A program made the position numbers and the translations under genes. A DNA stretch of 64,000 nt, taken from the NCBI RefSeq assembly GCF_023525255.1, contig NZ_CP073355.1, positions 930,001 to 994,000 of the forward strand, in the 5' to 3' direction. The notes below the pieces were generated by a model. The model worked only from the letters and a program-made list of their open reading frames with translations, was not told the origin of the DNA and ran no database searches. Shown here piece after piece: positions 56,431 to 61,742 of this stretch. Each line of letters begins with the position of its first letter. The first letter of the stretch is position 1. The stretch is from Thermospira aquatica (GTDB lineage: Bacteria; Spirochaetota; Brevinematia; Brevinematales; Thermospiraceae).

Positions 56431-57471
56431 ATGCGAGAATACCTGGAAAATTTTGAGCAAAACTATCTCTCAGTTTATGCCACCAGAAGCTTTCAGTCAC
56501 GGGGGAGAAAGATCCCTGAAGATCCTGATGAACTTCGTACCCATTTTATGCGGGATAGAGACAGAATTATCCACAGTGAAGCATTTCGTCGCTTAAAGCA
56601 CAAGACGCAGGTTTTTTTGTCTCCTGCCAGTGATACCTTCAGGACACGTCTTACGCACACTCTTGAGGTGTCTCAGATAGCGAGAACGATTGCCAGGGCA
56701 CTTCGTTTAAATGAAGACCTCACCGAAGCGATTGCTTTGGGACATGATGTGGGGCATACCCCTTTTGGTCATGCTGGGGAGCGTGTGATCCAGAAGTATC
56801 TTGATCCCTCTTTTCGTCATGCTACGCACAGTGTCAGAGTCCTGAGTGCCATAGAAAAAAACGGACATGGATTAAATCTCACCTATGAGGTTCTGGACGG
56901 TATTGCCAAACACTCCAAAACCGGTCAGAGTTCTATCCTCTGGAATGAAAAGGATAAACCAGCCACACTTGAGGGTCAGATTGTAAGGCTTGCGGACATC
57001 ATTGCGTATGTCAATCATGATTTGCAGGATGCTCTTGCCTCAGAGCTTCTTTTGTCATCGGACATTCCTCCGCGCCTTCTGGATGTTATAGGAGAGACAC
57101 ACTCGGCGAGAATCAATACTCTTGTTCTGGATGTTATTTCCTGTTCAAAGGACAGCCCTGAGATAGGTATCAGTGAAAAAATGCTTGAGGCTCTTAATGA
57201 ACTTCGAGCTTTTTTGTTTGAGAGAGTGTATATGCATCCCGATCTTCAAAAGGAGATGACCAAGGCAGAAGGGGTACTGGTCGCCCTTCTGGAACATTTT
57301 GAAAAACTCCTTGATAGGGGAGAACCATTTCCTGCGCTGATTCCTCTTGTGCCTCATGACGACAAAAAACAGATGCTGGTAGACTGTCTTGCTTTTATGA
57401 CAGACACAGAAGCGATGAAAATCTTTTATCAGATCTATATTCCCAAGTCATTTACCTGGAGTGTCCGATGA
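56431..57471 (+). CDS. dgt: Deoxyguanosinetriphosphate triphosphohydrolase-like HD protein
   Basis: 346 residues. HD superfamily: IHSEAFRRLKHKTQVFL, THTLEVSQIARTIARAL and GHDVGHTPFGHAGE (metal-binding HD), ILAYVNHDLQDA region. Cleaves dNTPs to nucleoside and triphosphate. ATG 56431 has GGGGAGGAG upstream. The SpoIIE-type gene overlaps its stop. Confidence 0.93.
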   Translation: MREYLENFEQNYLSVYATRSFQSRGRKIPEDPDELRTHFMRDRDRIIHSEAFRRLKHKTQVFLSPASDTFRTRLTHTLEVSQIARTIARALRLNEDLTEAIALGHDVGHTPFGHAGERVIQKYLDPSFRHATHSVRVLSAIEKNGHGLNLTYEVLDGIAKHSKTGQSSILWNEKDKPATLEGQIVRLADIIAYVNHDLQDALASELLLSSDIPPRLLDVIGETHSARINTLVLDVISCSKDSPEIGISEKMLEALNELRAFLFERVYMHPDLQKEMTKAEGVLVALLEHFEKLLDRGEPFPALIPLVPHDDKKQMLVDCLAFMTDTEAMKIFYQIYIPKSFTWSVR

Positions 57472-59558
57472 TGTGGGTGAATATAGTTTTTGCTATCTTC
57501 TCTTTTTTTGTTTTTGTGATTTTTCTTGATTATATCAAGAATGTGTACAAGACGGAAGTATTACTCGAACAGCTCTTTGACCAGTTTCTTCGTATGGAGA
57601 GTAGTGTAAAATACGAAGAACAGGCCATGTATGAAGCTATAGGAAAAATCCTGGGTAAGGCTTTTTTCTCCTCTCAGTGTGTGATCTATGTGCGTGGGAG
57701 AGAAAAGTTTTTCTTAAAATATCAAAACATGCCTCACCCGAAGTGGGCAAAACTGATGCGCAGAAATCTTGATCTTGAGATAGAGGCTGCTCTCCTGGGT
57801 ATTAGTCGGGCAAAGGGTGGGGTCAGTGAGGGTTTTTACAGCGTCTATTTTCGAAAAAAGGCTTTTCAAACCCTTGTGATCCATGTCAAAAATGCCCAGG
57901 GAAAGGTTGTCGGAGTGATTTTGTTTTTTTATTTTTCTCCGATTGCCTATTTTCGTGCGGTGAAATATTTCAAGGTCAATGGCTCAAAACTTCGGGATTT
58001 TTTGAAACATCTGTTTTTAGTGATTCGTGAGTATGCCATGGATTTTAAAAATATTACCATTAACCAGATTAAGGATTACGCTGTCTTGATTATTGATCCG
58101 AATTACCACATTCTCTACGCGAACACAGGGGCTGGATTTCTTCTAGGATCAGCCTCTGAAGTCGCTCTTACTGGTCAATCCTTTTTCTCCTATATTTCTC
58201 ATGAGTCTCTGGACCATTTCCAGGAGAATGTCACAAAACTTCAAACGGTTGGCGAACTGAAAACCCATCTCTATCTTGTTATCCCCCAACGACGGGAAAG
58301 TCAGAAAATCCATGTGCAGGCATATATGAAATCGATGACGCTTGAAGATGAGTTTATGGGGCTTTATATTTTGCTCCATGATATTACCAACGAAGAGATT
58401 CTCCAGCAAAATATGAAAAAATATGCGGCGATAGCCAATTGTCTTTTTAATTATTCTTCAGATGCGATTTTTCATGTCGCCCCAGATGGACGGGTTGGTC
58501 GGAGTAACCAGGCGGCTCAGAACCTCTCGGGACAGGACATGCCTCTCACCGGTCAGTTGTTTGTTGGGCTTTTTCCCAAAGACTTACGCAAAAAAATGGA
58601 AGAATTGCTAGATCGAACAAAAGTGACGAAATCTTTTCAGGAACATACGGAGATTCACTACAACGATCGCTGGTATAATGTGCGGGCTTTTCCTGTTTTT
58701 GTCGATGATGTGTATGATAGTAGTGTGATTTCTTTTGTCGATATTACGGAAATCAAAAAACACGAAGAGCAGCTTGCTACCATGAACCGGCAGATGATTG
58801 AAGATTTGAATGCGGCAAGAACCCTTCAGTATGAGTTACTCCCGGAGAGTATGCCTGTTTCCTCTCTCGTCTTTTATAAAGCTCTCTTTCAGCCTTGCGA
58901 AGAGTTTGGTGGGGATTTTTACTATGTAGAAGAGATCATCGTTGAAGGAAAACCCTATCATCTGATTTTAGTGGCAGATGTGGCAGGACATGGGATTTCA
59001 GCGGCGATGCTTACGGTACTTGTGAAGGATGTCTATACGACGTTTCGGAATTCTCTCGTGAGCAGAGAAGATATTTTCCCGAACCGATTTCTTGAGATGT
59101 TGAATGAAAAGCTTTCCACACTCGAGATGTCAACGATGCCTTTTGTTGCGGCGTACATGGCGATTTATGAACCTTATTCTCGAGAGTTTTTGTACGCAAG
59201 TGCAGGTATGCCCTTTGCTATTTATATTCAGAAGGGGGGCGAAGTAAGTTTTCTTGGCATTGAGAAGTCTCCTCCAACAGGTTTTCAGAATGGCTTTGTC
59301 TATCATTATAAGAGCACTTTCCTTCAACCGGGAGATAAGATCATTATTTTTACTGATGGCGTGGAGGAACTGCTTTCGTTTTATAACACGTATCTTAATA
59401 ATATTGTTATGGAAAACCGTCATCTTCCCCTGGCAAAACTCGTGGCTATTCTTCAGGGAAAGATTGAGGATTTTTATGCCCCAGGCCGTCGCCCACACTA
59501 TCGTCAAGATGATGTGACGATGGTTTTTATGGAAATTCTTGAAGAGGAAAGAAAATGA
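57468..59558 (+). CDS. Membrane PAS-SpoIIE/PP2C serine phosphatase
   Basis: 696 residues. Membrane helix (about 4-20), an unassigned region, two PAS-like domains (about 205-310 and 325-430), then a PPM/SpoIIE phosphatase: ARTLQYELLPE, FGGDFYYV, LILVADVAGHGISAAMLT and IIIFTDGVEELL, RQDDVTMVFM. The metal-binding Asp residues are kept. RsbU-like phosphatases usually dephosphorylate an anti-anti-sigma factor; none is nearby. It heads an overlapping run with the next two genes. The downstream sigma factor makes sigma-related control attractive but unproven. Confidence 0.88.
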   Translation: MMWVNIVFAIFSFFVFVIFLDYIKNVYKTEVLLEQLFDQFLRMESSVKYEEQAMYEAIGKILGKAFFSSQCVIYVRGREKFFLKYQNMPHPKWAKLMRRNLDLEIEAALLGISRAKGGVSEGFYSVYFRKKAFQTLVIHVKNAQGKVVGVILFFYFSPIAYFRAVKYFKVNGSKLRDFLKHLFLVIREYAMDFKNITINQIKDYAVLIIDPNYHILYANTGAGFLLGSASEVALTGQSFFSYISHESLDHFQENVTKLQTVGELKTHLYLVIPQRRESQKIHVQAYMKSMTLEDEFMGLYILLHDITNEEILQQNMKKYAAIANCLFNYSSDAIFHVAPDGRVGRSNQAAQNLSGQDMPLTGQLFVGLFPKDLRKKMEELLDRTKVTKSFQEHTEIHYNDRWYNVRAFPVFVDDVYDSSVISFVDITEIKKHEEQLATMNRQMIEDLNAARTLQYELLPESMPVSSLVFYKALFQPCEEFGGDFYYVEEIIVEGKPYHLILVADVAGHGISAAMLTVLVKDVYTTFRNSLVSREDIFPNRFLEMLNEKLSTLEMSTMPFVAAYMAIYEPYSREFLYASAGMPFAIYIQKGGEVSFLGIEKSPPTGFQNGFVYHYKSTFLQPGDKIIIFTDGVEELLSFYNTYLNNIVMENRHLPLAKLVAILQGKIEDFYAPGRRPHYRQDDVTMVFMEILEEERK

Positions 59559-60046
59559 GTGAAAAGTACCTTGTGAGACAAATTGAGAAAACATCTTTTG
59601 TCTCGGGAATAAGGTTAGAGGATTTTCTTGTGGAGGTGAAAAAACTTATTGTCACGTGTCAAAAAAAGCGAAGTATCGAACCTTTTGTTCAATTGCCAGA
59701 GAATATCAAAAAAGAGATCACGGAGACGGCCTTTTTGCTCTCTGAGGAGTGGAGCAAGCTTTTTCTTTCGTTGATTCTTCATAAAAATATAGAGGCGCTG
59801 GTGGCACTTGAGGGGGTTATAATAGAAAGTGCAACCAGAGAGGTGATGGAAGCTTTGAAAAATATGCTTGAGCTTGTCGGTGAAGAGTTTCATGATTCTC
59901 CTTTGCAGCTTTATAAACTTCGACGGATCTACTACACGCTTGTGACTTATTACAGTGAAGATGAACCCATGATAGGGTATGATATTTTACTCTATCGACC
60001 GGGGTTTTCTTTTTCCTGGATTCACTGTCTTGAGGACCTGTTATGA
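59555..60046 (+). CDS. Conserved-context helical protein, function unknown
   Basis: 163 residues, mostly alpha-helical (EWSKLFLSLILHKNIEAL; TREVMEALKNMLELVGEEF), no signal peptide, no motif recognised. It overlaps the phosphatase gene (ATGA) and the TtcA-like gene (ATGA), so is tightly coupled to both. May be a partner of the phosphatase; inference only. Confidence 0.7.
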   Translation: MSEKYLVRQIEKTSFVSGIRLEDFLVEVKKLIVTCQKKRSIEPFVQLPENIKKEITETAFLLSEEWSKLFLSLILHKNIEALVALEGVIIESATREVMEALKNMLELVGEEFHDSPLQLYKLRRIYYTLVTYYSEDEPMIGYDILLYRPGFSFSWIHCLEDLL

Positions 60047-60741
60047 AGGTGAAAAATCTTTTGAAGGTTGTAGGGCAGGCTCTTCAGGACTATCAGATGG
60101 TTTCTGATGGGGATGTTCTGTGGGTAGGGATCTCGGGATCGTGTAAGAGTTTTCTTGCGCTTCTTTTTCTGTTTTTTCGTCAGCGGTATGTGCCCATTCG
60201 GTATCAGCTCAGGCCAGTTCATGTTATGGTTCCAGGAGAGCGGGAAGAAAATGTAAAAAACTGGTACAGGGCTTTTCAGGAGCGCTGGGGATTGCCTGAT
60301 CTGGAGGTACTACCTTTTCCTCAAGAAGGGATGACCTTTTATAAAAAGGCTCCAAGGCAAGCAATTTTGCAGGTACTTATTCACCAAGTGGGGGTGAGCG
60401 GAAACAAGATTGTGCTGGGAGATTGCCTGGAGGATATCACACTCAGTGCTTTAGCTGCCCTTTTTTATCATAGAAGCTGGCGGGTTCTCCTTCCTCACGC
60501 GCTTCTTAATCGGGGTGTTTCTCTTCTTCGTCCTCTCGCGTATTTTTCAGAAAAAAAACTTTTGCGCTATGCTGACAATGAAAAAATAGTATTTTTTCGA
60601 GAACAACGTGCTCACGGTCCCGGCAAACAAAAGCTCGCCTCTTTTGTTTCTCAGTTTCGCAGCCTCACTCCTCAGCCACTTCTTCAGGTTTTTGCAGCGT
60701 TTCGTCATCCAAAAAAAGAGTATTTTTTGTTAGATGAATAA
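60043..60741 (+). CDS. TtcA-like N-type ATP pyrophosphatase homologue, catalytically decayed
   Basis: 232 residues. Overall layout matches TtcA (tRNA 2-thiocytidine synthesis): QDYQMVSDGDVLWVGISG, VLGDCLEDITLSALA (like LGHHxDD), and LLRPLAYFSEKKLLRYA (like RPLxYVxE). The PP-loop SGGKDS reads SGSCKS, and the two CxxC pairs for the iron-sulfur cluster are missing. So 2-thiolation is unlikely; it may bind something in a regulatory role. Last gene of the phosphatase run. Confidence 0.68.
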   Translation: MKVKNLLKVVGQALQDYQMVSDGDVLWVGISGSCKSFLALLFLFFRQRYVPIRYQLRPVHVMVPGEREENVKNWYRAFQERWGLPDLEVLPFPQEGMTFYKKAPRQAILQVLIHQVGVSGNKIVLGDCLEDITLSALAALFYHRSWRVLLPHALLNRGVSLLRPLAYFSEKKLLRYADNEKIVFFREQRAHGPGKQKLASFVSQFRSLTPQPLLQVFAAFRHPKKEYFLLDE

Positions 60742-60742
60742 G

Positions 60743-60821
60743 TGTGTATTTTTGTATACAAAATAATCCCTGTGATATATTTTTGTATACAAGTGTCTTT
60801 TTATGTATACAAAAATACACA
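60743..60821 (+). repeat. Array of TATTTTTGTATACA repeats forming an 18-bp inverted repeat
   Basis: TGTGTATTTTTGTATACA (60743-60760) is repeated as its exact reverse complement at 60804-60821, with a third partial copy ATATTTTTGTATACAA at 60777-60792 in between. Each core is the palindrome GTATAC. It lies 70-150 bp upstream of a sigma-54 promoter, where enhancer-binding-protein sites are expected. Confidence 0.9.
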
Positions 60822-60892
60822 AAGGGTTTTTTGTTCAGTATTTTTGAATATTCTATTTCCTTTTAATTGATAGAGATAGAAATTGTTTATTT

Positions 60893-60910
60893 TTGGCATG
60901 TTTCTTGCAA
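60893..60910 (+). promoter_or_regulatory. Sigma-54 promoter of the alternative sigma gene
   Basis: TTGGCATGTTTCTTGCAA: GG at 60895-60896 and GC at 60907-60908 are separated by 10 nt, as in the -24/-12 sigma-54 consensus (TGGCACG-N4-TTGCW). Predicted start about 60920, 25 nt before the ATG, which has GGAGGG upstream. Confidence 0.85.
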
Positions 60911-60944
60911 ATTTTTTAATGAAAAAGAAAAACGGAGGGCCGAT

Positions 60945-61742
60945 ATGCAAAGGGCGAATATTTTAAAACAATATGTCAAAGAGATCTGTCGTTATCCCCT
61001 CTTAACTGCCGAGGAAGAGAGAGAACTGGCGATACGAGTTCAAAATGGAGATGAGAAGGCAAAAGAGAAACTCATTACCTCAAATCTGCGATTGGTGGTA
61101 AAAATAGCAAAAGAAATGAACTATGGAAAGTTTTCTGTGATGGATCTCATCCAGAGCGGTAATGAGGGGCTCATGAAGAGTGTTGAGCGGTTTGATCCTG
61201 AGAGAAATATTCGATTTTCGAGTTATGCAGCCTACTGGATTAGACAGGCTATCTGGAGATTCCTCTGTGAAAACAAACAAATTGAAAAGATTTCTCATCG
61301 CATGCAGGACAAAAAACGTGATATTCATCGTCATATTGAGTCTTTTTTTCTTTCCATGAGTCGTCTACCCTCTGCTCTGGAACTTGCGAAAATGATGGAT
61401 ATTTCTCTGTTTGAGGCGGCAGAGGAGCTCAGGGCATATTATCCCCAGATGTCTGAAGGAGTGACGTTTGATCTGGATGATATCCCTGATGGAGAAGATC
61501 TCGAAGAGAAAGTGGAGAGGGAATGTCTTTCTGAAACACTTCAGGAGGTTATAAAGGATCTGGATGAGCATTCACGGGATCTTATTAAGATGCGCTATGG
61601 CTTGGAGGATGGGGAAAGATGTACGCTCGGGGATCTGGCTAGGAGGTTTCATATGAGTGTGGAGGGTGTTCGGCAAAAGGAGCGTCGGATTCTTTCGATG
61701 CTTCAGGATAAGTATTCTTTTCTTCGTGCCTACCTTGCATAG
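60945..61742 (+). CDS. Alternative sigma-70-family factor
   Basis: 265 residues. Region 1.2-like LKQYVKEICRYPLLTAEEERELA, region 2 NLRLVVKIAKEMN, LIQSGNEGLMKSVERFDPERN and FSSYAAYWIRQAIWR, and region 4 LGDLARRFHMSVEGVRQKERRIL (helix-turn-helix). No region 1.1 and a small region 3, so it is RpoS/RpoH-like and not the housekeeping RpoD. ATG 60945 follows GGAGGG; an in-frame ATG-less extension upstream would cross the sigma-54 promoter. Target promoters unknown. Confidence 0.92.
   Translation: MQRANILKQYVKEICRYPLLTAEEERELAIRVQNGDEKAKEKLITSNLRLVVKIAKEMNYGKFSVMDLIQSGNEGLMKSVERFDPERNIRFSSYAAYWIRQAIWRFLCENKQIEKISHRMQDKKRDIHRHIESFFLSMSRLPSALELAKMMDISLFEAAEELRAYYPQMSEGVTFDLDDIPDGEDLEEKVERECLSETLQEVIKDLDEHSRDLIKMRYGLEDGERCTLGDLARRFHMSVEGVRQKERRILSMLQDKYSFLRAYLA

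Follow-up and report, generated by a model that had tools for sequence, protein, structure and literature searches.

Sequence features of a putative sigma-54-dependent cascade to an alternative sigma factor in Thermospira aquatica

A gene for an alternative sigma factor in Thermospira aquatica is preceded by what appears to be a sigma-54 promoter and an array of repeats, which raises the question of whether one sigma factor here controls another and, if so, through which bacterial enhancer-binding protein (bEBP). We examined this locus within a 64-kb stretch of DNA (hereafter the window; C1:930001-994000 of a genome that forms a single contig of 2.515 Mb) and compared it with genomes across the phylum.

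The promoter, the sigma gene and the dyad array

We identified an exact match to TGGCAYRN4TTGCW at 60894-60909 on the forward strand (TGGCATGTTTCTTGCA; -24/-12 elements TGGCATG-TTTC-TTGCA). A first-pass annotation had placed the GG and GC of this element 10 nt apart and the element 35 nt before an ATG. Direct reading of the sequence bears out both figures: the GG (60895-60896) and GC (60907-60908) are separated by exactly 10 nt, and 35 nt lie between the end of the 16-mer and the ATG at 60945. Mismatch-free occurrences of the consensus number only 14 on the two strands of the 2.5-Mb genome, and the promoter is conserved in two congeners and in orthologues across the phylum. A genome lacking rpoN would be at odds with sigma-54 control; the complete genome encodes one copy of rpoN together with four strong bEBP matches (three weaker AAA matches were left out of this count). 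The sequence thus argues strongly for a sigma-54 promoter with upstream enhancers at this locus, and transcription is predicted to start near 60920, about 12 nt past the GC.

Behind the promoter, direct reading places a ribosome-binding site, GGAGGG, at 60934-60939 (forward strand), followed by a forward-strand gene that starts at the ATG at 60945, ends at 61742 and encodes 265 amino acids with sigma factor regions 1.2, 2 and 4 (Pfam). Regions 2 and 4 exceed the Pfam cut-offs (56.9 and 33.6 bits), which places the protein in the sigma-70 family. The gene had been described as RpoS/RpoH-like, but its product scores 160.8 bits against the NCBIfam RpoS equivalog (cut-off 378.7) and 145 bits against the RpoH equivalog (cut-off 323.1). 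By these curated cut-offs it is neither, and we therefore refer to it as an alternative sigma-70-family factor. Orthologues in the two congeners are 55-56% identical.

Three forward-strand genes form a conserved string (57468-60741) just upstream of the sigma gene. They encode a PAS-SpoIIE phosphatase (57468-59558; Pfam), a short conserved protein with no Pfam match (59555-60046) and, directly 5' of the array, a TtcA-like protein (60043-60741; a weak NCBIfam TtcA match below cut-off). Gene order upstream of the sigma gene is the same in both congeners and largely common to G009, a member of the same order but another family: the phosphatase and TtcA-like genes are kept in G001, G002 and G009, and the gene for the short protein in G001 and G002. 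A role for this string in control of the sigma factor is possible.

Between this string and the promoter, the first-pass annotation had reported an 18-bp perfect inverted repeat (60743-60760 with 60804-60821) and a third copy (60774-60791). These positions hold, while the repeat unit needs correction: the array consists of three dyads, each an 18-bp TGTATAC-N4-GTATACA unit with one half often degenerate. Dyad 1 (TGTGTATTTTTGTATACA; 60743-60760, forward strand) starts at -151 from the -24 element, dyad 2 (GATATATTTTTGTATACA; 60774-60791, forward strand) at -120, and dyad 3 (TGTATACAAAAATACACA; 60804-60821, reverse strand) at -90. The third dyad is oppositely oriented and is the exact reverse complement of the first. 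Dyads follow one another at 29-31 bp, close to three helical turns, so they would sit on the same face of the DNA.

The dyads, ~80-150 bp 5' of the promoter, are kept together with it. Comparison of upstream regions among orthologues, suggested as a check in the first-pass annotation, showed that both promoter and array positions are maintained in the two congeners, each with three TGTATAC-N4-GTATACA dyads starting at -148, -119 and -88 from the TGGC, and that the dyad also precedes many orthologues in the phylum. It was unrecognisable 5' of the sigma gene in the order-mates G004 and G007. A dyad matrix applied at a threshold of at least 8 bits found no match elsewhere in the 64-kb window; the matrix was built with the array's own sites, so only this absence elsewhere is informative. 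We also considered TTGTATACAA alone as the box unit. Of its eight exact occurrences in the genome, two fall in the array and one at lpxC, whereas the other five lack a sigma-54 promoter at that distance; the 18-bp dyad fits better.

Recurrence at lpxC and across the phylum

In all three genomes of the genus the same dyad lies at -86 to -88 from a sigma-54 promoter of lpxC, the gene for the first committed step of lipid A synthesis (named here by translation; the Pfam LpxC model was run on other genomes). We surveyed possible further targets by pattern searches and in selected stretches of sequence. The pattern GTATAC-N60-90-TGGCAYN5TTGC has two matches in this genome and its reversed control none. 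When 393 genomes of the phylum were searched, GTATAC 60-90 bp before such a promoter marked only the sigma gene and lpxC in each genome of the genus. The lpxC genes of the order-mates G003, G006, G009 and G007 likewise have sigma-54 promoters, and order-mate lpxC genes show related but weaker sites equally far upstream (TGTATTATTAATGACACA, TGTATTATTTATGAGACA and TGTGTGATTTTTGCCACA; positions by reading, the first two forms scored). Sharing of the enhancer with lpxC would couple the synthesis of outer-membrane lipid A to an alternative sigma factor; we found no such connection in the literature searched, of which coverage was partial. We observed a similar dyad and sigma-54 promoter in G141 (C1:398381; L122), a genome without lpxC, before another gene (MEKTYDLRSIEQEFLRKSIHMSIALSP...) that, judged by eye, perhaps encodes a lipid kinase.

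Sigma-54 promoters before alternative sigma genes proved widespread. From about 70 genomes we gathered 115 distinct alternative sigma genes and scored their upstream sequences with a matrix written from the known sigma-54 consensus. A score of at least 13 no more than 350 bp upstream was called a promoter. Such promoters precede 78 of the 115 genes; the opposite strand gave none (0 of 115), and shuffled sequences gave 0.4%. Several sigma genes lack one, so this wiring is widespread and not universal.

The sigma genes fall into tree groups, two of which concern this genome. Group I comprises the window gene, those of its order-mates and 24 rows spread over the phylum, every one with the promoter. 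Group II takes in the genome's second alternative sigma gene (C1:2389419-2390321), which has a sigma-54 promoter of its own (TGGCACGATTTTTGCA; C1:2390363-2390378). Scanning with a dyad matrix trained on the genus alone, we found dyads of at least 8 bits in 17 of the 30 group I upstream regions from outside the genus, versus 3 of 46 regions of other sigma genes with a sigma-54 promoter (Fisher p = 2e-6). At 14 bits or more the counts were 9 of 30 and 0 of 46 (p = 1e-4); relatives are non-independent, so both p values overstate the number of separate events. Background per upstream region was 0.007 at 8 bits and 0 at 14 bits. The dyad usually lies at -100 to -118. Group II genes are without the dyad and are often near an Rrp2-type bEBP.

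Control of RpoS by sigma-54 is commonly treated as a feature of Borrelia, and our literature search for an RpoN-sigma cascade across the phylum turned up only work on Borrelia and Leptospira. Sigma-54 promoters before most of the alternative sigma genes sampled in the phylum, in groups that differ in their enhancers, give it an evolutionary background, in which the sigma cascade of Lyme disease appears as a single branch of an ancient and general arrangement, and thereby open it to testing in non-pathogenic relatives.

Candidate readers of the dyads

The four bEBPs of this genome, A to D, differ in architecture and setting. A is short, lacks a receiver and is encoded in the rpoN operon. B (C1:920136-921491, ~69 kb from the locus) has a receiver, an AAA domain and a Fis-type HTH, adjoins an NtrY-like membrane histidine kinase with HAMP, and groups with other NtrX-like proteins; we call it NtrX-like by this resemblance. 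C is of receiver type, and D, of GAF type, adjoins glutamine synthetase. Several copies of one transposase-like ORF (MELAMFERRPIYRETAK...) occur near bEBP genes and elsewhere in G000 (L098, L099).

Outside the window's order, all eleven dyad-bearing genomes checked encode an E-type bEBP, whose recognition helix reads IQRTYLSRLIKEL; this count leaves out two others with the dyad, G202 and G329. The genus has none. The recognition helix of the NtrX-like protein (IERTYLYRKMKEL) matches the E consensus at 11 of 16 residues, compared with 7, 5 and 6 of 16 for A, C and D. As NtrX has the sole E-like helix among the four bEBPs of the genus, we assign the dyads to it with medium confidence, on helix similarity and elimination. 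NtrX proteins of E-bearing genomes mostly have another helix, YPSNLH. ERT/ERS-type helices also occur in NtrX of other families, so the resemblance to E may reflect common ancestry, not a takeover. No dyad was found near ntrX or the bEBP A gene, and we rejected autoregulation on this ground. In the E-type bEBP of G035 (L342:249-1763) we noticed GAFTDA in the sigma-54-contacting loop, which normally reads GAFTGA.

We favour, with a probability of about two in three, a cascade in which a sigma-54 promoter drives the sigma-70-family gene from upstream enhancers read by the NtrX-like bEBP, with lpxC co-activated. The membrane NtrY-like histidine kinase would phosphorylate the NtrX-like bEBP, which would then bind the dyads and contact sigma-54 RNA polymerase by DNA looping, opening the promoter. 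The sigma factor and lipid A synthesis would be switched on together, and this cascade would run alongside the second sigma-54-driven sigma gene with its Rrp2-associated group.

A real cascade could also have its dyads read by another bEBP, most plausibly A, which is kept in the order, is linked to rpoN and ranks next after NtrX when the HTH is scored against that of the E type. We consider this unlikely: the recognition helix of A (IHRNTLTQKMKRL) shares just those 7 residues with the E type, and the single-contig genome G020 has a dyad and no short A-type bEBP among the matches listed. The dyads might even serve as operators for some unrelated regulator, whether repressor or activator (GntR-like, for example), with the sigma-54 promoter used independently, since short palindromes such as TTGTATACAA also fit other regulator families. 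This is very improbable for dyads that stand at a fixed distance from the sigma-54 promoters of two unlinked genes without overlapping either promoter, repeat at about three helical turns and accompany sigma-54-driven group I sigma genes throughout the phylum.

It is also conceivable that the locus is the Borrelia arm itself, with the Rrp2-type bEBP C activating the window sigma gene. Borrelia Rrp2 does group with C, and the sigma tree leaves Borrelia RpoS compatible with either group: a tree with group I as a single clade that excludes Borrelia is not rejected (p-AU 0.57), and the p-AU of 0.001 for Borrelia RpoS with group II alone is unusable, as other sigma genes nest inside group II. However, in several genomes C-type bEBP genes lie beside, or within 3-8 kb of, sigma genes of group II and not of group I, group II has no dyads, Rrp2 acts without an enhancer (PMC1976401), and the helix of C agrees with the E type in just 5 residues of 16. 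We judge this reading to be quite improbable.

Relation to Borrelia and other known systems

In Borrelia burgdorferi, as in the window, an alternative sigma-70-family gene is immediately preceded by a sigma-54 promoter. Two small genomes that we take to be Borrelia, each with a single bEBP, also have such a promoter before an alternative sigma gene (L225, L229). The Borrelia rpoS cascade requires a bEBP to start (PMC1976401, PMC2940757), and no enhancer is involved in activating rpoS (PMC1976401). The window locus, in contrast, has three dyads of a kind common to lpxC, whereas Borrelia rpoS has none (PMC1976401). The difference between a dyad-bearing group I and a dyad-less, Rrp2-linked group II suggests that the window arm is probably parallel to Rrp2-RpoN-RpoS and not the same. 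The counterpart of Borrelia rpoS in this genome is likely the second sigma gene. Borrelia has its rrp2-type and sigma genes in a different order from the other genomes, so the feature they share is linkage and not gene order. Of the Borrelia-like cascade proposed in the first-pass annotation, the step from RpoN to an alternative sigma factor is thus upheld by promoter, rpoN, bEBPs and conservation, while the likeness to the Borrelia arm fits the second sigma gene better.

A broader scenario, which we offer tentatively and at somewhat less than even odds, is that two sigma factors stood anciently behind sigma-54 in Spirochaetota, each with its own bEBP. The dyad would have been kept while its reader changed, from the E type in most lineages to an NtrX with a look-alike helix in the order of the window, and this NtrX would there command lpxC as well. 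The Borrelia virulence cascade would then represent the other arm in reduced form, without enhancers.

The NtrYX system of Rhodobacter sphaeroides likewise pairs an NtrY-like kinase with an NtrX bEBP, as we propose here, and its loss affects both the cell envelope and the transcript of lpxC (PMC7240162). There lpxC is an indirect target, whereas here lpxC itself has a dyad and a sigma-54 promoter. The motif proposed for proteobacterial NtrX, GCAn9TGC (PMC7240162), differs from the TGTATAC-N4-GTATACA dyad. In Leptospira, a sigma-54 promoter is predicted 5' of lpxC (reviewed in PMC12655853), and one of the bEBPs in the EbpA/EbpB-sigma-54 system is of GAF type, like D. L. interrogans lacks RpoS and RpoH (PMC12655853), so no sigma cascade of the window's kind is described there.

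We also observed other sigma-54 promoters in these genomes. One has TGCAC...GTGCA-type boxes upstream (G000 C1:1090440, L065:1501; G001, L070; G002, L054) and, within ~10 nt downstream, a conserved non-coding stretch that is short and ends like a terminator (TGCCCCCTTAAATATATAGAGGTCCCGTCTACCCCCGGCGGGGCCTCTCTCTTTTT). This stretch is a candidate sigma-54-dependent small RNA; its matches in Rfam were all below threshold, with 6C RNA scoring best. A second class has TGCAaaatTGTGCA boxes 5' of genes for small secreted-looking proteins (G000, L050 and L071; G001, L064; G002, L066). In a third class (L074, L049, L063), TGTTTC/GAAACA boxes stand ahead of a gene whose product may be a small heat-shock protein.
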